44,740 nt of DNA, taken from the NCBI GenBank assembly GCA_026386845.1, contig JAPLMW010000025.1, positions 1 through 44,740 of the forward strand, written 5' to 3'. Made by a program: the position numbers and the translations under genes. The notes under the pieces were generated by a model. It saw nothing but the letters and a program-made list of their open reading frames with translations, did no database searches and was not told where the DNA came from. The DNA is from Phycisphaerae bacterium (GTDB lineage Bacteria > Planctomycetota > Phycisphaerae > Sedimentisphaerales > UBA12454). Of this stretch, positions 29,160 to 42,561 are shown in pieces. Numbering within the stretch: the stretch's first letter is position 1; every line of letters begins with the position of its first letter.

Positions 29160-29795
29160 ATGACACAGACAACGATGACCCGCAAGGAAAGGGAAAAAAT
29201 AAGGCATAAAGAAGAAATTCTACGGGCTGCCTTGAATCTTTTCTCCAGCAAGGGTTTTCATAACGTCTCTATGCAGGATGTTGCCGGCGAGTCAGAATTT
29301 GCCGTCGGCACACTCTACAATTTCTTCCAGAGCAAGGAACAGCTTTTCACCGAATTATTGAACGATTGCGCTGAAAAAATCTATGAAATACTTTGGCCTA
29401 TTCTTCAAACCCAACTGCCGGAGAATGAAAAAATCAGAGCTTTCATAAAAGCTCACAACAAATTATTAGAGGATAATATCGAATTTATTAAGTTTTACGT
29501 TTCAGAATACGGCACTTTAACAACTGTCCCCGTAACCGCTACGGAAAAAGCAGAACAGACCAAGGCTGATTTATATATGAAGCTCGAAGACATAATAAAA
29601 TCGGGAATAAGGAAAAATATCTTTCGGTGCGTAGATGCAAAGATTACCACAATGTCGCTAACGTCAACTCTTCAATCTTTTATTCTCGAATCGTCAAAAA
29701 ATTTCGTAAAAGCAGAAATCGAAGATGGCCTTGCCAAGATTGAACATCTGTTTCTTGACGCACTACTGCTCTCGGAGAATCGCAATAATGATTAA
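29160..29795 (+). CDS. TetR/AcrR-family repressor of the RND efflux operon
   Basis: A 211-residue regulator. Residues about 15-60 form the TetR helix-turn-helix (ILRAALNLFSSKGFHNVSM, then VAGESEFAVGTLYNFFQSK), and the rest is an all-helical ligand-binding domain. It is the first gene of an apparent five-gene operon. Its stop overlaps the start of the outer-membrane protein gene (ATGATTAA), so the two are translationally coupled. AGGAG precedes the ATG. It probably binds the palindromes in its own promoter and is released by an efflux substrate (family knowledge plus position). Confidence 0.94.
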   Translation: MTQTTMTRKEREKIRHKEEILRAALNLFSSKGFHNVSMQDVAGESEFAVGTLYNFFQSKEQLFTELLNDCAEKIYEILWPILQTQLPENEKIRAFIKAHNKLLEDNIEFIKFYVSEYGTLTTVPVTATEKAEQTKADLYMKLEDIIKSGIRKNIFRCVDAKITTMSLTSTLQSFILESSKNFVKAEIEDGLAKIEHLFLDALLLSENRNND

Positions 29796-31176
29796 AACAG
29801 CAAGAAACATATCGTTTGTTATTTGTCTGTTTTTGCTCCTGTTTGCCGGCTGCAAAAGTTTTAAAGGTCAGGAAATAAGAGAAAAAAATGCCAAAGATTA
29901 CCAGCGAGACCTGGCCGCAGAGACAAACGATGTATTATCAAAGAAAGCGGCTTTTGACCTGAACGACTGTATCCAAACCGCACTGGAAAATAATCTGCAG
30001 ATAAGGGCTTCAAAGATTCAGCAGCAGATAGCTAAACTCGAAAGGAAAATCGCCTTTGCGGCCTTTCTGCCTACTGTAAACCTCGATTATCAATACACAA
30101 GCTGGGACCGACAGCCGAGAATTAAAACAGCTACATCCACAATGGCTACGCATGACCGGACAATAAAGGAAATCACGTGGCAATTTCAGATGTCAATATT
30201 CGACCCGTCAACGTGGTTCTTATACGCAATGCACAAAAGAGGCGAAGAAGTCGCCCAGTTAGTCACAAAATATACCAGACAGATGACTACACTGGAAGTT
30301 ATCATTGATTATTATCACTGCTTAACACTGCAGCAGGTTCAGCAGGCTATGCAAAGCCAGCTTAACGCTACCGGCGAACTGGAAAAGGAAATCGGCGAAC
30401 TTTTTAAGGAAGGACTCGTTACACAATGGCAATATCAACAGGCTCAGGTAATGACTCTGGCGAGAAAAACCGAGCTGAACCGCATACAATACTCAATCAA
30501 ACAGGCCAACGGCGATTTACTCGTTTCAATGGGTTTATCGCCATTGGCTGATATTTCACTAAATACCGAACAGCCGCTGAGCGAACCGAATGAACCTCTG
30601 GAAGATTTGGTATATAGAGCGCTGATTGAAAACCCGCAGCTTCAAATCGCCGACCGTCAGGTAGCTATTGAAGAAGAAAAAGTCAAAGTCGCTCTGGCTG
30701 CATTTCTGCCGAGACTGACAATCTTCGCAAACAGGGGAAATACTTCAGATTCGTTCCAGCTTTATCAGGACTTCTGGACCTTCGGACTGACGGGAACTAT
30801 GGCTATATTCAACGGGTTTGCCAATATAAACGAGTACAAAGCGGCAAAGGAAAGAAAAAAGGCATCGTTTATCGAAAGAGAACAGGAAACTCTTACCCTG
30901 ATACTCGAAGTGTTCAAGGCATATCTGAACCTGCAAAATGCAAAAGACCAGGCAACACTCGCCCAAAAATCTTTCGATGCCGCTTCAAAACATCTCGACG
31001 AGACAAACGAAAAATGGAAGGAAGGATTGGTGCAAAGCTCGGAAATGCTTAACGTCCTTGCCGAAAAAGATAACGCGCAAATGGAGTTGATGAACAGTAA
31101 CTTTCAGCTTCAGGTATGTATCGCCACACTTAACAGCCTGATGGGCACAACTGATACGCCGGGCGAGAAAAAATAA
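29788..31176 (+). CDS. TolC-family outer-membrane efflux lipoprotein
   Basis: A 462-residue outer-membrane factor. The N-terminal hydrophobic signal ends in lipobox LFAGC (Cys 22), so it is probably lipid-anchored. Two OEP repeats with long amphipathic helices follow (about 50-260 and 270-455; typical segments are QEETLTLILEVFKAYLNLQ, split after 19 residues, and EKDNAQMEL near the end). ATG 29788, which overlaps the TetR stop, is preferred to a longer start inside the TetR gene. It forms the exit duct of the tripartite pump with the two downstream products. Confidence 0.93.
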   Translation: MIKTARNISFVICLFLLLFAGCKSFKGQEIREKNAKDYQRDLAAETNDVLSKKAAFDLNDCIQTALENNLQIRASKIQQQIAKLERKIAFAAFLPTVNLDYQYTSWDRQPRIKTATSTMATHDRTIKEITWQFQMSIFDPSTWFLYAMHKRGEEVAQLVTKYTRQMTTLEVIIDYYHCLTLQQVQQAMQSQLNATGELEKEIGELFKEGLVTQWQYQQAQVMTLARKTELNRIQYSIKQANGDLLVSMGLSPLADISLNTEQPLSEPNEPLEDLVYRALIENPQLQIADRQVAIEEEKVKVALAAFLPRLTIFANRGNTSDSFQLYQDFWTFGLTGTMAIFNGFANINEYKAAKERKKASFIEREQETLTLILEVFKAYLNLQNAKDQATLAQKSFDAASKHLDETNEKWKEGLVQSSEMLNVLAEKDNAQMELMNSNFQLQVCIATLNSLMGTTDTPGEKK

Positions 31177-31178
31177 CT

Positions 31179-32435
31179 ATGGAAACGACAGAACAAAATA
31201 TAGAACAAAAACCAAAAAAATTCAATGCCGAAAGAATAATTATAATTGTTATGGCAATTATAATTATCGCTTTGGCAGTCTATTTGGCAGTTTATCATAA
31301 AATGAAAACAAATAGAGATTCTGCCAACCAGCCGAAAATCGAAGAGCCTAAAATCGCTGTTGTTACAATGCCTGTAACTACAAGAACTTTTGAAAGAACA
31401 GTGAATATACAGGGAAATCTTGAATCGAAAAATTTCGCACTTGTTTCGCCGAGGGTCGCGGGGACCATTGAAAAGTTTTTTGTCGATGAAGGCAACAGCG
31501 TTATTGCAAATGAAAGCAAACTGTTCGCCACAGACTCAGTCGCTTTACAGCAAGTCGTTGAGATTCGCAAAAAACTGCTTGATATCGCAAACAGCACGAA
31601 AAAACAGGCACAGGCCAATCTGGAAAAAACTCAGGCCGATTTCAACAAGGCTGAGATTGATTACAACCGATTCAAAAGACTTTATGAAAAAAAGGCAGTT
31701 ACCGCCGACGCTTTTGAACAGCAGGAATCACAATACAAACAACTCATCGCCGCTATAACATCAGCCAAAGCAAATATCGAGTTGGTCCAGGCCAATATCG
31801 AAAAAGCAAAGGCAGACCTTGCCATAGCCGAAAAAGACCTGGCGGACACGATAGTTTATGCCCCGATTACCGGAAAAATCAGCCAGAGGTTCAAAGAGCC
31901 CGGCGAAATGGGACGGCCGGGAGAGCCGGCTGTCCGTATTGATGATAATGCCATTATCGACACAAGTGCGTTCCTGCCGGCCCAGTACTATCCGGAAATT
32001 ACAGAAGGCCAAACCAAAATGAAAGTCGGTGTTTCCGGGCGGGACCTCGGCGAACACAATATTTATTACAAAAGTCCGACAATAAATTCAAAACTGCGAA
32101 CATTTGAAGTCAAATGTCTGCTCGACAATCCGGCTCAAACAATCGCGGCAGGCGAAATGGCAGAAATCAGTGTTGTTCTCGAAACCAGAAAAGGACTGGC
32201 AGTGCCGACGGAATCAATTCTGCGAAGGGAAGAGCAATTTGTTATTTTTGTCGTCGGAGACGGAAAAGCCCATCAGGTTCAGGTGAAAAAAGGCATCGAA
32301 AACAACGGCTGGGCAGAGGTTGTAAGCAGCGAACTAAACGAGCAAAGTATGGTTGTAACAATGGGGCAGAATATGCTCGATGAAGGCAAAGCGGTTTCCA
32401 TTCAGAACTTGTCCGCCTCTGGCGGAGGAGACTAA
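31179..32435 (+). CDS. RND efflux membrane fusion protein (HlyD/AcrA type)
   Basis: A 418-residue periplasmic adaptor anchored by an N-terminal membrane helix (about 20-40, IIIIVMAIIIIALAVY). The order is: first lipoyl half (PRVAGTIEKFFVDEGNSV), a long coiled-coil hairpin (about 125-220), second lipoyl half (IVYAPITGKISQRF), a beta-barrel, and a membrane-proximal domain. It bridges the TolC-like lipoprotein and the RND permease. It starts two bases after the upstream stop. The last residues (LSASGGGD) are encoded by a GC-rich hairpin TCCGCC-TCT-GGCGGA (32412-32426) whose continuation GGAGGAGAC also serves as ribosome-binding site of the next gene. Confidence 0.94.
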   Translation: METTEQNIEQKPKKFNAERIIIIVMAIIIIALAVYLAVYHKMKTNRDSANQPKIEEPKIAVVTMPVTTRTFERTVNIQGNLESKNFALVSPRVAGTIEKFFVDEGNSVIANESKLFATDSVALQQVVEIRKKLLDIANSTKKQAQANLEKTQADFNKAEIDYNRFKRLYEKKAVTADAFEQQESQYKQLIAAITSAKANIELVQANIEKAKADLAIAEKDLADTIVYAPITGKISQRFKEPGEMGRPGEPAVRIDDNAIIDTSAFLPAQYYPEITEGQTKMKVGVSGRDLGEHNIYYKSPTINSKLRTFEVKCLLDNPAQTIAAGEMAEISVVLETRKGLAVPTESILRREEQFVIFVVGDGKAHQVQVKKGIENNGWAEVVSSELNEQSMVVTMGQNMLDEGKAVSIQNLSASGGGD

Positions 32436-32438
32436 ATA

Positions 32439-35400
32439 ATGTTTCTTTCTGACTTTTCCATAAAAAGACCTGTTGCGATGAGCTGTCTGATTATCGGCCT
32501 GTCGCTGCTGGGCTTTAACGCCTATCGCAAAATGGGTCTGGAGCTTATGCCCAAACTCGATATCCCATATATCACAGTAACCACAGTATATCCGGGAGCA
32601 AGTCCGGAGCAAATTGAAACAGATGTCGCCAAGAGAATTGAAGACCAGGTTGTTACTATCGACGGCCTTAAACACGTCAACTCTTCCTGTATGGAAAACG
32701 TCTGCCAGACTATGCTCGAATTTAATCTCGGTATTAATGTGGACATCGCCGCGACGGATGTCCGCGAAAAACTTGACCTTATTAAGACAGATTTTCCTGA
32801 AGATGTCGAAGACCCTAAAATCCTTAAATTCGACATCAACGCACAGCCTATTATTTATCTGGCCCTGACAGGAGAATTACCGCTCGATGAATTATACGAT
32901 TATGCGAATAACGAACTGAAAGACCGGCTGACTATCATATCAGGCGTAGCTGAAGCGGAACTTATCGGCGGAAACATACGGCAGGTGCATATCGTTCTCG
33001 ACAGGGACAAACTTGCCGCAAAAGGTCTGTCAAGCCTCAATGTTATCAAAGCGGTCAGGGAAAGCATTAAACTAATTCCATCAGGCCGCATACAGGAAAA
33101 AGGCACTGAATACGGCGTCAAGGTTGACGCTGATTATTACAATATCAGAGATATTGAATCGCTGCTGATAATAAGCGAAGACGGCGAGCGCTGCTATGTT
33201 AAAGACATTGGAAAAGTTGAGATGAGCACTAAGGAAGTGCGTCAAAAAGCCTTCATCGATGGCAAGCCTGCAATATATATAAAAATCATTAAAAAGGCCG
33301 AATCAAACGCCGTCAAAGTCGTGGATGCCGTTAGGGTAACAGTTGATAAACTCAATAAGGAATTGCCGGGCGGAATGAACCTCGTATGGTTCAACGATGA
33401 AGGCACATTTATCAAAGCGAGCATCGAGAGTACATGGAGTGATATATGGCAGGGTATAGTCCTCACCGCACTGATTCTATTCTTTTTCCTTTATAATATC
33501 CGCTCAACGTTTGTTATTGCCGTAACAATGCCGCTTACCATCGTAATCGGCCTGTTCTTTATGCAATTCCTCGGATATACACTCAATATATCAACTCTGC
33601 TGGCCATAGGTCTGTCGGTAGGTATTCTGGTTACCAACTCCATTATCGTTATGGAAGCCATTGTTGACAGACTCAACAAGACAAAAGACCCTAAAGAGGC
33701 CGCCCGGCTGGGAACTGCGGAAGTTCTTATTGCTGTCGCCGCCAGCGCAGGCACAAACGTCGTTGTGCTTTTCCCAATCGCAATGATGGGCAGCAGAATC
33801 GGACTCTTTATGAGGCCGCTGGCTTTGACAATGCTCATTATGAATGTCGTTTCCCTGTTTATATCTTTTACACTGACGCCGCTGCTTTGTTCAATAATTC
33901 TCAAGCCCCGGCCGGAGAAGAAAACTATTCTTATGCGAGTGGAAGGCGGCTTTAACTATTTTCTGGATGCGGTAACTGAAAGTTATAGAAGACTGCTAAC
34001 GTTTAATGAACAGCATCGGCTCGTCGCAATAGCCATTGTCCTTGTTACAATAGTTATGTTCGTTCACTCATTAAAACTCGCCAAAAAAGTCGGATTCGGT
34101 TTCTTCGCCAATCCAGACAGAGGACAAGTTTATGTCAAACTTGAATATCCGACAAGATATGACCTTGATTTGACGGTAAAACGCGTTCACGACGCCGAAC
34201 AAAAACTAAAAGACCTGCCGGAACTAAAGCATACCCTTACAGCTATCGGCAGAGTCGAGGGCCATATTGGCCAGGCATCAGAAGGCGTTTATCTTGCGCA
34301 ACTGCTGCTTAAATTCTCTGAACGAACCGAGCGGCAGCAAACAATTCAGCAGCTTATGGAATTAACAAGACAAAGACTGGCGAACTATCCGGAATGCATC
34401 ATTACAGTTACTCAGGCTTCGATTATCGGCGGACAAGCGCAGGATATAGAACTTGAAATTTCAGGGCCGGAGCTTGCCGAACTTGATAAACTTGCGCTGA
34501 TGACAAAAGAAATGGCAACCACAGAAAAAGGTTATCTCGACACGGACACAACGGTCCGTCCCGGCAAACCGGAATTGAGGGTCCTGCCGAACAGGGCTGT
34601 GCTTTCCGACATTGATTTTGCCGCGACAAGTCTCGGCACAACTCTTAGAGCCAATATCGAAGGAATCGAGTGCGGCACATTTAAAAAAGGTGCTCGAAAT
34701 TACGATATCGTCGTTAAATTCGAGAAAAAAGAGGGAAAAGAGCAGGTTGAACAATTTCTCTTTCCCGGCGCGCCGGGAAAACCTTTGCTGTTGACGACAC
34801 TTGGTGATATTCAGCAGAAAATCGCTCCTATTCAGATTACAAGAAAAGACAAACAGCGAATCTCGAAATTATTGGCAAGTCCAACTGCCGCAAAACCGCT
34901 CGGTATCGCGGTCGCTGAACTAAGCAAGCAGCTCGATGAAAGCAGAAAATTACCTCCCGGCTATGGTTATTTCTTTGCAGGTGTCGCGGAGTTTATGGGT
35001 GAGGCCGTAGTTGCGTTTGGAGAAGCCGCTATAATCGCGGCGTTATTGTGCTATCTTACAATCGCGGCTATGCTCGAATCGTTCAAACAGCCTTGGCTGA
35101 TTCTCGTAACTCTGCCGCTTGGCATAATCGGAACTGTATGGGCGCTGGCGCTCACCGGCGAAACTATGTCGATGTTTGTGCTGATGGGAATGGTTATGCT
35201 TATCGGTATTGTCGTCAACATCGCCATTTTGATTATGGACCAGTTTAATGTCCACGTCAAAGAAGGCGTTCCGATTCATAAAGCAATGATTAGCGCGGCC
35301 TGCGAAAGATTCAGACCGGTTGCTATGGTTACTCTCGCGGCTGTGCTTGGTATGCTGCCGCTGGCGACCGGAAGAGGAATCGGCTCAGAGATGAGAAATG

Positions 35401-35510
35401 GCGTCGGCATCGCTTCCGTCGGCGGTTTGCTTATCTCAGGTATCATGACTCTTATTGTTATGCCGATATTATATGATTTGTTTACCCGCAAGAAATCGCC
35501 GAAACAGTAA
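32439..35510 (+). CDS. RND efflux permease (HAE1-like) lacking the TM4 proton-relay Asp
   Basis: A 1023-residue inner-membrane pump. It has twelve expected membrane helices in two halves and two large periplasmic loops with porter and docking domains. The N terminus FLSDFSIKRPVAMSCLIIG and YPGASPEQIETDVAKRIE are typical of the family. In TM4, where AcrB-type pumps have V-D-[DN]-[AS]-I-V-V, this protein reads LVTNSIIVMEA (Thr 399, Asn 400), so neither acidic residue is present. TM10 reads GIVVNIAILIMD, with Asn (about 927) at the AcrB Lys position, a variant also common in related pumps. It lies three bases downstream of the fusion protein gene. The substrate is unknown. Confidence 0.93.
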   Translation: MFLSDFSIKRPVAMSCLIIGLSLLGFNAYRKMGLELMPKLDIPYITVTTVYPGASPEQIETDVAKRIEDQVVTIDGLKHVNSSCMENVCQTMLEFNLGINVDIAATDVREKLDLIKTDFPEDVEDPKILKFDINAQPIIYLALTGELPLDELYDYANNELKDRLTIISGVAEAELIGGNIRQVHIVLDRDKLAAKGLSSLNVIKAVRESIKLIPSGRIQEKGTEYGVKVDADYYNIRDIESLLIISEDGERCYVKDIGKVEMSTKEVRQKAFIDGKPAIYIKIIKKAESNAVKVVDAVRVTVDKLNKELPGGMNLVWFNDEGTFIKASIESTWSDIWQGIVLTALILFFFLYNIRSTFVIAVTMPLTIVIGLFFMQFLGYTLNISTLLAIGLSVGILVTNSIIVMEAIVDRLNKTKDPKEAARLGTAEVLIAVAASAGTNVVVLFPIAMMGSRIGLFMRPLALTMLIMNVVSLFISFTLTPLLCSIILKPRPEKKTILMRVEGGFNYFLDAVTESYRRLLTFNEQHRLVAIAIVLVTIVMFVHSLKLAKKVGFGFFANPDRGQVYVKLEYPTRYDLDLTVKRVHDAEQKLKDLPELKHTLTAIGRVEGHIGQASEGVYLAQLLLKFSERTERQQTIQQLMELTRQRLANYPECIITVTQASIIGGQAQDIELEISGPELAELDKLALMTKEMATTEKGYLDTDTTVRPGKPELRVLPNRAVLSDIDFAATSLGTTLRANIEGIECGTFKKGARNYDIVVKFEKKEGKEQVEQFLFPGAPGKPLLLTTLGDIQQKIAPIQITRKDKQRISKLLASPTAAKPLGIAVAELSKQLDESRKLPPGYGYFFAGVAEFMGEAVVAFGEAAIIAALLCYLTIAAMLESFKQPWLILVTLPLGIIGTVWALALTGETMSMFVLMGMVMLIGIVVNIAILIMDQFNVHVKEGVPIHKAMISAACERFRPVAMVTLAAVLGMLPLATGRGIGSEMRNGVGIASVGGLLISGIMTLIVMPILYDLFTRKKSPKQ

Positions 35511-35532: not shown

Positions 35533-36333
35533 ATGCTGCATTACAGAGACAGAGAACGAAATATTCAGATAATAACCTTAAACCCGGTATTCGCATCGGA
35601 TGTCTGCGACAGACTCCATAGTTACCCCGGACTGGAATCGGTGAAAATACTGCTGCCGGGCAATAGTAGTTCCGGCATAAAAGTTGAAGACATTGAAAAG
35701 CTGGCTCACGATACCACGAATTCAGCGATATTAATATTCGATATTTCCAGTTGGTCGAAAATAAGACTTCAGCAGACTTTTAGCGATATAATCAGGTTCA
35801 ATCGGCCGGATTTCAATGAAAACTGCTATTCCGTCGTTATAGGCGATTTGCCAATAGAGTATATAAAAGACGAAAAACTGCGCAATTTTCACACTTACCT
35901 TTCTGATATCAGAGTTGATTTCAATCCGGCTGTTTTATTTATCACTCCTCTTTTTATTTACAGCCCGGAAGAAAAACAGTTAATTATGACAAATCCGGAT
36001 AATCCTTTTCCGGAGAAAATACCCCAGCGTTTCGGCAAATACTTCGAGGAGAAAGAATTGCCTTCTGTAAGACAGGTATCGGCTTTTTTCAGGGCTGCCG
36101 AAGTTGAGAATGATAAAAAACTGAAGAAAAAAAAGAAAAGACAAACAGTTCTAAAAAAATTATATATCCGGATGATGGAGGAAAATTTTCCCTCTATGAA
36201 AGAACTGTTTACAAAAGGATTGACAAAGGAAGGATATTCTATGCCGGGAGAATCGCTTAAAGTTCATTTGTATCCTTTTTTCTTCGAAAAATGGGTATTG
36301 GATTTAATGAGGAAAGCGGAATCGGTAATGTAA
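35533..36333 (+). CDS. uncharacterised protein, last gene of the RND operon
   Basis: A 266-residue soluble protein that I do not recognise. The N-terminal 120 residues alternate beta-like and helical segments (IQIITLNPVFASDV, SVKILLPG, SAILIFDISSW, SVVIGDLP), suggesting a Rossmann-like or flavodoxin-like fold. A very basic run (KKLKKKKKRQ, about residues 197-206) is followed by a helical C-terminal 60 residues. There is no signal peptide or membrane helix. It begins 22 bp after the permease gene, so it is probably co-transcribed with the pump. No good Shine-Dalgarno is seen, but the frame is long and codon use matches its neighbours. Confidence 0.7.
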   Translation: MLHYRDRERNIQIITLNPVFASDVCDRLHSYPGLESVKILLPGNSSSGIKVEDIEKLAHDTTNSAILIFDISSWSKIRLQQTFSDIIRFNRPDFNENCYSVVIGDLPIEYIKDEKLRNFHTYLSDIRVDFNPAVLFITPLFIYSPEEKQLIMTNPDNPFPEKIPQRFGKYFEEKELPSVRQVSAFFRAAEVENDKKLKKKKKRQTVLKKLYIRMMEENFPSMKELFTKGLTKEGYSMPGESLKVHLYPFFFEKWVLDLMRKAESVM

Positions 36334-37452: not shown

Positions 37453-37641
37453 TGGTGCTATTTCTACAAGGCCAATCCAATCCAGCCACATGGAAAGTGG
37501 AAGAGACGGCAGATAGTAAAAACTGCGCAATTCGGCCTTGATTTTCCTGCAGGGATGCGAGCATATAGGTTTGTGCATTGTGCGCAACCGGTGCTGGAAT
37601 TTGGTCTATTTAACAAATAAATATTTAGGAGGATGGAAGTA

Positions 37642-40600
37642 ATGAAACGGTTATTAACAACAGATAAAGCAAAAACAATTATTAGTTCGCTGGTCTTATG
37701 CGCTATGGTAACTGCCGCTTTTGTTACACCTGCAAACGCCTATGACTATAAGGCAAAGTTCATACAGGAAGCCAACTGGCTCACCACTCAGCAGGTAACC
37801 AGCGGAGGAAATCTCGGCGGAATAGTGGAAGGTGAAGACTATACCACCGTCGTAGAAACGGATAACACACAAGAAGCTATATGGATATGGTCTCGCTATG
37901 CTGAATTAACCGGAGACTACACAAAATATATAACAAATATAAATAATGCTTGGACTTACTGCCTCGCATTCCCGGCATGGACTGAAGGTGGGACCCCTAC
38001 AACGCCACTGCCTTATTACAGCACATATAACATTGGTTGGGGTTTGCTGGCAGAGATGAAATACAGGCAGGTCTATCTGGGCAGGGCCGAATACGTTAAC
38101 CATACATCCTACGGCACAAGTTGCGCAAACACTCTGGTTAGCTATACCCCCGGCACAAGCAACGCTACGGATGCTTTGTGTCTCGGAATTGCCTCTGGTG
38201 CCCTGTATAAATATGGCGTAGATGTCAACAGTATCACATACAAAAACAGGGCTGTTGTTCTCGGAGGTAGCGTTAGAACGTGGCTCGGTACTACCTCAAA
38301 CTTCGCTGCAGAAAGTTGGGCGGTTTCAGGCGGCATTGCTGTCTGGGGTGTTCTGAACTCATACTATCAAGACCCCTGTAACGCCAGCGGAGCAGCCGCC
38401 TGGGCGGAAACTGCAAACACATATATGCCTCTTAATGCAATGAACGGTTCAACTAACAACTATGAATACGGCATGGATGGATGGTATTCATGGGGCCATT
38501 ATGCTCTCATTCAGTACCGAGGCGCTGATTCATTCACCAAATACAATAATGTCATCAATAAAATCTTAGATTCCGATAACGATCACGATGGCGGCATACG
38601 TCAGGGTCTTACTTATGCCGATACTTCGGATTATGGCTGGGCTACGGACATACCGCAGTTTGGCGTAAACTACGGTCTAATCGGAACAACAACTTACACT
38701 GTTTCCGGTACGATAACATCAGGCGGTTCACCCCTCGCCGGCGTACTGATAAGAGGTCTGCCCGGCACCAACCTTACCGACGCGAACAGTTGGCCTGTTA
38801 CTGATGCAAACGGTTTTTATACCACTCAGGTTCCTGCCGGTTTCTACGGCACAGTAACACCAGCAAAGGTTGGATATTCGTTCTCGCCGGCCAACAGAAC
38901 ATACAGCAATTTATCATCTAATCAAACAGCTCAGAATTATACCGCAGCAACAAGTACCTATGTTCAATTATTAGATTCATGGGTAACAGGTACAACTCAC
39001 ACAAAAGTAACAGGCACTAATCGCGCATTGGTCTTTGTCGCACACGCAAAGACTAGTGGTGTAACCCTAAATACCGTAACCTACGGCGGACAAGGAATGA
39101 CAAAAATCATCGATAAAATTATTGGCTCATCCTCCAGCCGGGCTTATGTTGCAGCATTTATACTCAAGGATGCAAACATTGTTGCTGCAACCAATACCAC
39201 CTTTACTCCCACTTGGAGCGGCACTGCACCTACCACTGTCACATACACCAGTGTACTCCTTCAGGATGTTAATCAAACAACTCTTACAGGCGCTTCTGCC
39301 AGTAACGGTTTAACAACTGTTTACTCAGTAGCAACAACTCCGATTGCCACGAGCAACGGGGATATGATAATTGAAAATGCTGCAAGTTCTGTCGTGGGCA
39401 CATATCTGCCTACAACCGGCTGGACCAAAGATATTGACCTTTCAGCGACTGGTTATGATGGTATGGATGCGCACAGAAACGCTGCGGGTATCAATGAAAC
39501 ACCGGCAATAACCCAAGCTTCGGCTAACCAGTCGATCATTGGTTTCGTGGTCAAGGCTGCACCGCCGTCTGTTACTCGCAAATTGACGGTTTCTTCCTCG
39601 GCGAACGGCACTGTAACTACGCCAGGTATCGGCGATTTCAATTATCCCGACGGCACTTATGCAAGTATCGTTGCATCAGCAAGCGCCAATTATCATTTCG
39701 TTAACTGGACTGGCTCGGCTGTAACGGCAGGCAAAGTTGCTAGCCCAAATTCACCAAGCACGACCGTCCTTATGGATGCCAATTACACAGTCCAGGCTAA
39801 CTTCACCATAGATCAAAAGTCATTGACAACTTCTGCCTCAAGCGGTGGTACTGTAACCACTCCAGGCATAGGAACATACTGGTATGACTATAACAGTCCT
39901 GCAAGTATCGTTGCATCAGCAAACGCAAACTATCATTTTGTTAACTGGACAGGCTCAGCTGTAACGGCGGGCAAGGTTGCCAGTCCAAATTCACTAAGCA
40001 CAACCGTCCTTATGGACGCAAACTATGCAGTCCAGGCCAACTTTGTTAAAGACCAGAGGTCATTGCTAACCTCTGCCTCAGGCGGTGGCACTGTAACCAC
40101 TCCAGGCATAGGAACATACTGGTATGATTACAATACACCTGCCAGTATCGTTGCATCAAATAATGCAAATTATCATTTCGTTAACTGGACAGGTACTGCC
40201 GTAACGGCAGGTAAGGTAGCCAGCCCGACATCAGCAACTACAACAGTTACAATGGATGCAAACTATACTGTCCAGGCTAATTTCGCTATAGATCAAAAGT
40301 CATTGCTAACCTCTGCTTCAAGCGGTGGCACTGTTACAACGCCCGGTATAGGAACATACTGGTATGACTATAACAGTCCTGCTGGCATCGTTGCATCAGC
40401 AGTTGACCCCAATTACCAGTTTGTCAACTGGACAGGCACGGCCGTAACGGCAGGTAAAGTTGCTAATCCAACTTCACCAAACACAACCGTCCTTATGGAT
40501 GCCAATTACACAGTCCAGGCTAACTTCAACCCCATAGTTCCTGACGTCGTAGGTATGACTCAGGCTGCAGCGACCACAGCGATTACCGCGATTGATAATC

Positions 40601-42561
40601 TAACTGTCGGCAATGTAACACAGGAGTGCAGTGACACTGTAGCTGCCGGTCTTGTTATAAGCCAAAGCCCGATTGGCGGAACACAAGTCAATATCGGCTC
40701 ATCCGTTGATATAGTTGTTTCACTCGGCCTGCCGATTATACCTGATGTAACAGGTAAGGCCCAGGCCGTTGCAGAGGCTAATATCGTCGCTGCAACATTT
40801 ACAGTTGGTAATGTAACTACTGCCTACAGCGATACAGTTGCTGTCGGCAATGTAATAAGTCAATTGCCAATCGGAGGCACCGCTGCAACAAGCGGAACTG
40901 CGGTTGATATAGTAGTTTCACTCGGCCTGCCGATTATACCTGATGTAACAGGTAAGGCCCAGGCCGTTGCCGAGGCTAATATCGTCGCTGCAACATTTAC
41001 AGTTGGTAATGTAACTACTGCCTACAGCGATACAGTTGCCGCAGGCAATGTAATAAGTCAATTGCCAATCGGAGGCACCGCTGCAACAAGCGGAACTGCG
41101 GTTGACCTGGTAGTATCCAACGGCCCACAGCCGCTGCAGGTGAGAGACGACTTCAACGATAACAGGCGAGGCGCAATGTGGCTGGTGTCTGTAGAACAGA
41201 ATGCAGGGATAACCGAGGATGCCAACAGGCTAAACATAACGGCTGTCGGCGGCCAGATGGATTTGGTTACTCCATGCATCGGCCACTGGAAGATGAACGA
41301 CAACGCAGCCAATAAAACAGTTCTCGACAGTTCAGATGCCAACCACAACGGCACTGCAGCGCGGGACACGAATGTTCTGGCTACCACAGGCAAAATAAAT
41401 GGTGCGTTGATTTTCAACGGGACTTCTGATTACATCGATGTAGGGAATGTTATAGGTACCGGGGCATATACAAAAGTTGCCTGGGTTAAAAGAGCTGATA
41501 CAAATGGAACAGTTTATAACAATATAATTTCCACAGGTAATACTGATTATTCTCATATTTTCTGGGCTCCAAGTGCTTATTCGTTCAAGCTTTCTGCAGG
41601 GAATATGAATGCCAATCGTGTTCAGGATCCCAATTCGTTAGCGCCTGATGTTTGGTATCAAGTGGCAGTTACTTTTGACCCTAATGTAAGCTCTGGAAAA
41701 ATGGTTTTGTATAAAAATGGGGCTCAGGTAGCTAGTGCCACAAGTGTTCCAACCCAGTCAAGCAGCCCGAAAACTTACATTGGAAGGTATGCTAGTGGCT
41801 ACTACTTCAAGGGCACAATTGACAATGTGATGATATTCAACAAGGCACTAACGGCAGATGAGATAGCAGCTCTATATAACACCGGCAGCGGTACCGAGAC
41901 AATGCCTGCATCTGCCGGCGGCAGCGGTGAGTATTCAGCCAACGGCTGGAGCATCGATGCCAATGAGAACTTCCAGGCCAAAGTCGATTTCCATTACATC
42001 ACCGCCTCCGGTCCGGCCGGCTGGGTTGCGATAACCATCGAGAGCAACTATGATAACTATGTCTCGATTATAGCAGGCGCTGACGGTAACTTGCCGTACT
42101 TCGAGTATGAGAAGGTCGTCGATGGCAATGTAACATCAGCCCAGGCATCGAGAGGCTCGAATGACGGCACACTTTACATCTCTTACGATGCAGCTTTGGA
42201 TGAACTGTATTTAAGCTACAGCGACTATGGTGCCGGCAATGCATGGCAGACCATAACAGGTTTGTTGGCCGGGCAATGGTATTCTGAATCGGTCAGAATA
42301 GCTGTTGGCGGCGGTTCTGCCGGCGATGTCATCGACAACAATCAGGCTTATCTGGACAATTTTGAGGTTACTTCCGGACTGCTTATCGGCTGGCCGCCGG
42401 TAACTGACATTGACGGCAATGGTTATATCGAGTGGCTTGATCTTGAGATAATGTGTGAAAACTGGCTCCAGACCGGTTCGAATGTCCCGGGTGATATTCA
42501 TAAGGATGAGGACAACATTGTGAACTTCCTGGACTTCGCTGACTTTACTTTGGCCTGGTAA
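37642..42561 (+). CDS. giant secreted multidomain protein with InlB repeats, PASTA repeats, nested LamG and dockerin-like end
   Basis: About 1639 residues. The Sec signal peptide (about 1-35) ends in the AxA-type site PANA. Residues 36-350 are an aromatic-rich, probably alpha-helical toroid domain without a clear family. Residues 355-430 form a carboxypeptidase-regulatory-like beta domain (TVSGTITSGGSPLAGVLI). Residues 435-640 form a beta domain (VTYGGQGMTKI). Residues about 646-963 are four InlB-B-type repeats in an exact 240-bp register (GTVTTPGIG, NYHFVNWTG, VQANF). Residues about 965-1160 are three PASTA repeats (PDVTGKAQAVAEANI). A beta-sandwich is interrupted by a LamG domain (about 1210-1420), and a dockerin-like pair closes the chain (DIDGNGYIEWLDLEIMCENW). 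ATG 37642 follows AGGAGG by nine bases. Probable role: extracellular or cell-surface polysaccharide binding or degradation (inference). Confidence 0.88.
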   Translation: MKRLLTTDKAKTIISSLVLCAMVTAAFVTPANAYDYKAKFIQEANWLTTQQVTSGGNLGGIVEGEDYTTVVETDNTQEAIWIWSRYAELTGDYTKYITNINNAWTYCLAFPAWTEGGTPTTPLPYYSTYNIGWGLLAEMKYRQVYLGRAEYVNHTSYGTSCANTLVSYTPGTSNATDALCLGIASGALYKYGVDVNSITYKNRAVVLGGSVRTWLGTTSNFAAESWAVSGGIAVWGVLNSYYQDPCNASGAAAWAETANTYMPLNAMNGSTNNYEYGMDGWYSWGHYALIQYRGADSFTKYNNVINKILDSDNDHDGGIRQGLTYADTSDYGWATDIPQFGVNYGLIGTTTYTVSGTITSGGSPLAGVLIRGLPGTNLTDANSWPVTDANGFYTTQVPAGFYGTVTPAKVGYSFSPANRTYSNLSSNQTAQNYTAATSTYVQLLDSWVTGTTHTKVTGTNRALVFVAHAKTSGVTLNTVTYGGQGMTKIIDKIIGSSSSRAYVAAFILKDANIVAATNTTFTPTWSGTAPTTVTYTSVLLQDVNQTTLTGASASNGLTTVYSVATTPIATSNGDMIIENAASSVVGTYLPTTGWTKDIDLSATGYDGMDAHRNAAGINETPAITQASANQSIIGFVVKAAPPSVTRKLTVSSSANGTVTTPGIGDFNYPDGTYASIVASASANYHFVNWTGSAVTAGKVASPNSPSTTVLMDANYTVQANFTIDQKSLTTSASSGGTVTTPGIGTYWYDYNSPASIVASANANYHFVNWTGSAVTAGKVASPNSLSTTVLMDANYAVQANFVKDQRSLLTSASGGGTVTTPGIGTYWYDYNTPASIVASNNANYHFVNWTGTAVTAGKVASPTSATTTVTMDANYTVQANFAIDQKSLLTSASSGGTVTTPGIGTYWYDYNSPAGIVASAVDPNYQFVNWTGTAVTAGKVANPTSPNTTVLMDANYTVQANFNPIVPDVVGMTQAAATTAITAIDNLTVGNVTQECSDTVAAGLVISQSPIGGTQVNIGSSVDIVVSLGLPIIPDVTGKAQAVAEANIVAATFTVGNVTTAYSDTVAVGNVISQLPIGGTAATSGTAVDIVVSLGLPIIPDVTGKAQAVAEANIVAATFTVGNVTTAYSDTVAAGNVISQLPIGGTAATSGTAVDLVVSNGPQPLQVRDDFNDNRRGAMWLVSVEQNAGITEDANRLNITAVGGQMDLVTPCIGHWKMNDNAANKTVLDSSDANHNGTAARDTNVLATTGKINGALIFNGTSDYIDVGNVIGTGAYTKVAWVKRADTNGTVYNNIISTGNTDYSHIFWAPSAYSFKLSAGNMNANRVQDPNSLAPDVWYQVAVTFDPNVSSGKMVLYKNGAQVASATSVPTQSSSPKTYIGRYASGYYFKGTIDNVMIFNKALTADEIAALYNTGSGTETMPASAGGSGEYSANGWSIDANENFQAKVDFHYITASGPAGWVAITIESNYDNYVSIIAGADGNLPYFEYEKVVDGNVTSAQASRGSNDGTLYISYDAALDELYLSYSDYGAGNAWQTITGLLAGQWYSESVRIAVGGGSAGDVIDNNQAYLDNFEVTSGLLIGWPPVTDIDGNGYIEWLDLEIMCENWLQTGSNVPGDIHKDEDNIVNFLDFADFTLAW
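40723..41118 (+). repeat. 198-bp tandem duplication encoding two near-identical PASTA repeats
   Basis: The units 40723-40920 and 40921-41118 begin with CTCGGCCTGCCGATTATACC and differ at only a few positions (for example GCAGAG/GCCGAG, GCTGTCGGC/GCCGCAGGC). The preceding PASTA copy (40530-40722) is much more divergent, so this pair is a recent duplication. Confidence 0.9.

Follow-up and report, generated by a model that had tools for sequence, protein, structure and literature searches.

Can an RND exporter run once the acidic residues of its central membrane helices are gone? The question is raised by a permease gene in a 44,740-nucleotide stretch of contig from a Phycisphaerae bacterium (JAPLMW010000025.1, assembly GCA_026386845.1; the whole stretch is hereafter called the window), whose fourth transmembrane helix (TM4) reads GX3TNX5E in place of the GX3DX6E motif defined for this helix (PMC5719797, PMC2891726). 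The motif residues G403, D407 and E414 (AcrB numbering) occur in all 254 Burkholderia sequences of one survey (PMC2891726), the hydrogen-bond partner of D407 in AcrB is T978 (PMC8277102), and D407N serves as a transport-dead control (PMC5546932). Loss of K940 likely goes with loss of D408, one acid remaining as the protonation site (PMC5719797).

A tripartite gene set whose permease has Thr-Asn in TM4

The permease gene (32439..35510, 1023 aa) stands at the end of a set of genes on the forward strand, to which all coordinates here refer, in the order TetR-OMF-MFP-RND: a TetR-family regulator identified by a profile match (29160..29795, 211 aa), a TolC-like outer membrane factor (OEP, OMF; 29725..31176, 483 aa) and a periplasmic adaptor (MFP/HlyD_D23; 31179..32435, 418 aa), the last two matched by Pfam and NCBIfam profiles. 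The permease itself matches ACR_tran (PF00873) over its full length (711.6 bits, residues 4-1015 against profile positions 2-1020), as do all 27 members of the alignment A1 used below. Every match to the NCBIfam RND permease models, broad and specific, falls under the curated cut-off, the top one being RND_permease_2 (646.3 bits against a cut-off of 1250). In an AlphaFold2 model of the protein (mean pLDDT 68), the 50 best Foldseek matches in the PDB are RND pumps (TMq 0.58-0.66), with an overlay rmsd of 14-17 Å. Judged by its architecture and its gene neighbours, this HAE-1-type protein is the inner-membrane permease of a putative tripartite exporter.

TM4 spans residues 384-410 (33588..33668). 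HMMER alignments to solved MdtB and MdtF run without gaps through this helix, setting ilvtnsiivme over fvvddaivvie and llvddaivvve, and the register is unchanged when AcrB, MdtB and MdtC are aligned with the protein by MAFFT; the codons ACC AAC (33633..33638) thus place Thr399-Asn400 at AcrB Asp407-Asp408, the assignment made in an earlier sequence-only reading of this DNA. That reading had also put Asn at the Lys940 position in TM10, and the MAFFT alignment bears it out, equating Asn927 (35217..35219) with Lys940. In TM11, Arg957 (35307..35309) and Val964 (35328..35330) align with Arg971 and Thr978, and position 941 is Ile. In the set made up of the window protein and relatives at least 55% identical to it, T at 407 with N at 408 is found in 29 of the 29 rows that cover the site, and N at 940 in 31 of 31.

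The permease gene is under purifying selection: comparison with one relative (L033) gives dN 0.12 and dS 1.7, synonymous sites being near saturation, and a second pair of relatives (L050 and L053) gives dN 0.042 and dS 0.59.

A deep acid-free clade in several phyla

When the 27-row alignment A1 served as query (E <= 1e-230), matches came from 12 of 392 genomes of the window's phylum and 83 of 288 genomes of the phylum of a Verrucomicrobia bin (L051), both lower bounds with two candidates scored per genome, as well as from 32 of 68 genomes of the phylum of a Hydrogenedentota bin (L054) and 4 of the 7 of the small phylum of L057. The L051-phylum search yielded 78 non-redundant rows from 80 of the 91 listed places, and of these 77 are acid-free at 407/408 (TN 46, AN 15, SN 14, AC 2) and one is DN. 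Fourteen loci from the L054 and L057 phyla, three of them repeats of earlier rows, read TN in ten cases, MN in three and MD in one; with the three repeats left out, 11 of 11 further clade members have no acid at 407 and 408.

We aligned 262 non-redundant permeases with AcrB, MdtB and MdtC and built a FastTree phylogeny with columns 407, 408, 940, 970, 971 and 978 left out. In this tree the TN, SN, AN, AC and MD rows fall together, along with a single DN row, in one clade of 119 (support 0.999), which divides into subfamily A (56 rows, including the window protein) and subfamily B (63 rows). No acid stands at 407 or 408 in 117 of the 119. Homologues with Asp at this place, named in the sequence-only reading as a pointer to sequencing error or a dead gene, are thus confined within the clade to L057 (Met-Asp) and L273 (Asp-Asn); both are nested among acid-free rows, and their acids are best read as later changes and look regained. 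L057 also has Ser at 940 and 971, and three loci of its phylum are Met-Asn.

Members of the clade come from Planctomycetota, Verrucomicrobiota and relatives, Hydrogenedentota and one small phylum; one (L066/L281) lies on a single contig of 4,810,751 bases attributed to the cultured Thermogutta terrifontis. The suggestion that T-N marks a conserved planctomycetal subfamily therefore holds in part: freedom from acid is the rule in a clade of 119, but the clade reaches several other phyla. Its sister is a group of nine rows, five NN and four DN, and over the whole tree the fewest changes of the acid at 407 come to six. Within the window's order, 12 of 110 rows (higher-scoring matches, not a random sample) have no acid, seven being TN and five NN. 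The window permease is a member of a deep RND/HAE-1 subfamily in which acid-free central helices are a conserved trait.

L178, L180 and L182 represent another lineage without D407, one that by eye looks heavy-metal-type: position 404 is Lys, 407 is Ser or Gly, and 408 is Gly. In a PN1 hairpin of the window permease lies a cysteine pair, C84/C89 (window 32688-32705, residues 84-89); both cysteines are present in 60 of 119 clade rows, in 0 of 133 controls and in 0 of 9 sister rows, and possibly form a disulfide or a metal site.

The clade also has a consistent partner gene. All 32 contexts examined have an MFP gene adjoining the permease (31 are distinct, L036 and L298 denoting one place), and an OMF gene is present in part of them. 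The window's genome (an assembly of 2.4 Mb in 96 contigs, most closely related among named genomes to bins of Planctomycetes, Sedimentisphaerales and Anaerohalosphaeraceae) holds one other PF00873 permease (L279), with the canonical motif GFVVDDAIV (DD) and K940.

What is lost and kept in the membrane core

How far the loss of acid extends was counted over helix limits that we take to be those of AcrB. The centres of TM4, 5, 6, 10, 11 and 12 are free of acid in 109 of 114 scored clade members (50/52 in A, 59/62 in B), and at least one acid is present there in all 131 D407-bearing controls. Basic residues are absent from the same centres in 51/52 rows of A and 62/62 of B, but also in 83 of 131 controls. 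All twelve helix centres are acid-free in 31/53 rows of A and 57/63 of B; most of the remaining rows have a TM2 acid at AcrB 342-346, like Asp335 of the window protein (33441..33443; AcrB 343). This acid is not conserved in the clade: position 343 is acidic in 13/56 rows of A, 0/63 of B and 2/133 controls. An acid at TM2 position 338 or 339 is found in 61/63 rows of B and 56/133 controls.

The core helices of the window protein itself contain no acid, and the sequence rules out a TM4 relay of the AcrB type. The expectation that proton coupling would need other residues, or that the pump may work differently, is thereby strengthened. The missing Lys940, which the sequence-only reading listed beside the TM4 change, is a different matter: the substitution N927 is real and, of the 117 clade rows that have a letter at 940, 114 carry Asn, but D407-bearing pumps also commonly have Asn there (63 of 135), so that it is uninformative alone. 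N940 by itself is ordinary, in agreement with PMC5719797; here the last remaining TM4 acid is gone too.

Around the vanished acids the two subfamilies differ. Position 407 is a hydroxyl residue in 54/56 rows of A and Ala in 17/63 rows of B. D407-bearing rows have T978 throughout (136/136 with a letter), with R (130) or K (6) at 971. In subfamily A, position 978 is I in 35, V in 18 and L in one of the 54 rows with a letter, and 971, kept as Arg in the window protein, is R in 31, T in 9, Q in 7, E in 5, S in 1 and V in 1 of 54; in subfamily B, 978 is T in 52, S in 8 and I in 3 rows, and 971 is K in 60/63. T978 is thus lost in subfamily A and, to Ala, in the five NN sister rows, and not in subfamily B. 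An initial coupling of T978 loss to D407 loss (38 of 39 clade rows in a 185-row census) was accordingly weakened, failing in subfamily B once Verrucomicrobiota were added. Other motif residues are retained across the whole clade, G403 in 119/119 rows and E414 in 118/118 with a letter. Position 449 in TM5 (Asn440 in the window protein, 33756..33758) is Asn in 116 of 119 clade members against 21 of 135 D407 rows; it is common to the sister group and therefore probably older.

For a membrane acid that might substitute for those lost, the core helices of the window protein offer none, and the acids conserved at the periplasmic end of TM8, described below, are suggestive without being a clear substitute. 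Glu956 of the window protein, beside the residue equivalent to R971, is invariant in 31 of 31 close rows but was rejected as a general substitute: a second planctomycete group has L there in four members, and most of subfamily B has no acid at this site. In the window protein itself, Asp335 and His543 may be titratable candidates. The latter, in TM7 (window 34065-34067; AcrB 550), is His in 57% of subfamily A, and its depth could perhaps allow pairing with Glu862 of TM8.

An acidic ladder on TM8

In TM8 and its periplasmic extension (residues 849-879, 34983..35075), a helix in the model, AcrB positions 864, 868, 872 and 875 correspond to E851, E855, A859 and E862 of the window protein, with the spacing of one helix face. 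At least three of the four sites are acidic in 111 of 117 clade rows versus 3 of 132 controls, and E-E-x-E is found in all 14 loci from the L054 and L057 phyla. The four-acid ladder as a whole is nonetheless a weaker novelty than it looks: the sister group also has the acids at 864 and 868 (9/9), which are common in controls as well (50/132 and 67/132), so that only the acid at 872 or 875 is new in the clade. That acid is present in 115/117 clade rows (54/54 in A, 61/63 in B), in none of the nine sister rows and in 14/132 controls; at 875 alone the counts are 52/54 in A, 18/63 in B and 1/132 in controls.

Since the loss of the central acids and the gain at 872/875 each mark one and the same clade, their association is not independent evidence; it is a lead, not proof. 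The NN sister rows lost D407 without an 872/875 acid. During the AcrB cycle the TM8 helix grows longer and shifts PN1/PC2 (PMC4359379), and a search for a relocated switch would best start with TM8.

Possible modes of working

We tentatively read the window permease as an exporter that works actively through a non-canonical coupling site, a reading to which we give somewhat less than an even chance. AcrB-like cycling would probably be retained, as the profile, the predicted fold and the MFP and OMF partners are kept, and the cycle would not be driven by protonation of TM4 acids. The leading candidate for the site is the acidic ladder E851/E855/E862 (AcrB 864/868/875) on the periplasmic extension of TM8, where protonation or ion binding could directly drive the switch of the helix that moves the porter domain in AcrB. 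That transport occurs, that it is active and that TM8 is its site are all three things that we infer, and the ladder in particular as the coupling site is rather doubtful. The broader proposition, that a deep tripartite RND branch works without central-helix acids, its TM4-TM10 engine moved to the TM8 ladder or given up and its porter cycle running on another energy source or none, seems to us evenly balanced. Probably the family is powered other than by AcrB-type protons, or is unpowered.

Several other accounts of the motif have to be weighed. That it reflects misalignment, sequencing error or a decayed gene is exceedingly improbable, even though many clade members come from metagenome bins and one (L070) has an in-frame stop: the TM4 alignment is gapless, the frame is open, dN lies far below dS, a change from D to T requires two base changes, and the motif is fixed in a clade that spans several phyla and independently sequenced genomes, the attributed complete genome of a cultured organism among them. 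Sequencing error or a dead gene was rejected on the alignment, the T-N in all 29 site-covering rows, dN/dS and the independent genomes. (The stop in L070 is a single TAG, and intact relatives exist.) A more serious contender, though still unlikely, is an uncoupled gated conduit or uniporter, in which substrate would follow its own gradient outwards by way of MFP and OMF and the cycle would be set by substrate binding alone. The disappearance of the core acids is consistent with such a conduit, as is the drift in subfamily A of position 971, essential in AcrB; the deep-pocket phenylalanine cluster of AcrB is not kept, and the substrate is therefore unlikely to be AcrB-like. Clade B Nramp of Bacteroides provides an analogy, though no more than that, Nramp being an unrelated family and an importer: a conserved clade of a proton-coupled family that is without most of the proton pathway and moves metals without protons (PMC12873925). 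The TetR regulator and the full tripartite set look instead like regulated efflux, which would usually run against a gradient, and the conservation of G403 and E414 throughout the clade and of K971 in subfamily B suggests that a conformational engine is under constraint.

Coupling to another ion at the old site, where Thr/Ser-Asn of TM4, Asn440 and Asn927 might form a cluster binding a cation such as sodium with no carboxylate, is improbable. The Na2 site of LeuT binds sodium without a carboxylate, and the enrichment of Asn449, the hydroxyl at 407 in subfamily A and the near-constant Asn940 of the clade would all suit such a cluster; the literature records one RND pump driven by sodium (PMC8277102). 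Yet the hydroxyl is missing from the rows with Ala407 in subfamily B and from four loci of the L057 phylum with Met407, position 941 is Ile in the window protein, and Asn449 is common to the sister group, where 4 of 9 rows keep D407. A heteromeric pump, with mixed trimers whose proton work would fall to a canonical RND subunit that bears D407 and is made in the same cell, is if anything less probable still. Mixed MdtB/MdtC trimers in which one subunit does the proton work have been proposed. A canonical partner is available in the window's genome, and a PF00873 search of 26 genomes gave at least two matches in every one. In one genome (G001, L280) the acid-free TetR-OMF-MFP-RND set is followed directly by a canonical MFP-RND-OMF set. 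But a second RND gene lies within the stretch in only 2 of the 32 clade contexts (L280 and L298), whose flanks are of unequal length, MFP and OMF genes of its own stand beside the canonical permease of the window's genome, and the two permeases of that genome are only 24% identical, unlike the close paralogues MdtB and MdtC. A protein search at 1e-30 had left one genome (G008) with only an acid-free RND, a result that proved unsafe: the PF00873 search found two in G440, which carries L033, by match scores the same sequence as L004 of G008.

Comparison with known systems

The window permease shares with AcrB of E. coli the full-length PF00873 architecture, the tripartite gene set, G403, E414, R973 and the predicted RND fold, but at 21.5% identity it replaces D407, D408, K940 and T978, is without the deep-pocket cluster and has an extra acid on the TM8 extension. 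Where AcrB-type antiporters have GX3DX6E it has GX3TX6E, with neither the D408-K940 pair (N400 and N927 in its place) nor the single-acid form that keeps D407. Its best solved relative by sequence is MdtB (9lyq, E 3.3e-97). MdtB and MdtC of E. coli are close paralogues that work as a two-permease pump; both, at 24-26% identity to the window permease, keep D407, D408 and K940, and the window set has a single permease gene rather than an MdtBC-like pair. NolG of Ensifer canadensis (a plasmid match, 31%) is of the same permease class and of similar length but keeps DD, K940, R971 and T978.

Closer in residues are the D407-N408 single-acid RND pumps, which likewise have N408 and, in 21 of the 23 rows with a letter, N940; they differ in keeping D407, which the window permease has lost, and T978 (23 of 23 rows with a letter). 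Nearest by tree is the nine-row sister group, whose NN rows (L010, L011, L013, L014 and L016), from the same order, are acid-free at 407/408 and have Ala978 in 5/5. The NN rows are set apart by 33-34% identity, Asn-Asn, a retained R971, only two of the four TM8 acids and the existence of close relatives with D407, the DN rows; they are another case of acid loss. BesB of Borrelia, considered as a possible precedent, was set aside, the passages on BesB that we consulted having no bearing on the question.

Among titles and abstract openings in the open-access literature we found no report of an RND family without a TM4 acid, and within that scope the predicted RND exporter subfamily, whose central membrane helices are devoid of acidic residues, is new. 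The replacement is comparable to the transport-dead D407N, made by nature in a whole subfamily and kept under selection. It offers a natural test of the role of the proton relay and of the uncoupling of the RND cycle from it; if the proposed reading is true, the RND porter cycle could run on another energy source or on none. For annotation, the label 'RND permease' can mask a mechanistically different group.

Neighbouring genes

Downstream of the permease, an open reading frame of 266 aa (35533-36333) matches nothing in Pfam or NCBIfam, and blastp gave no match to it in 36 relative loci, some of which are duplicates or have short downstream flanks. Farther along the window, at 37633-42561, lies an open reading frame of 1642 aa whose translation, inspected by eye, looks secreted and contains several near-identical repeats and a dockerin-like C-terminus.
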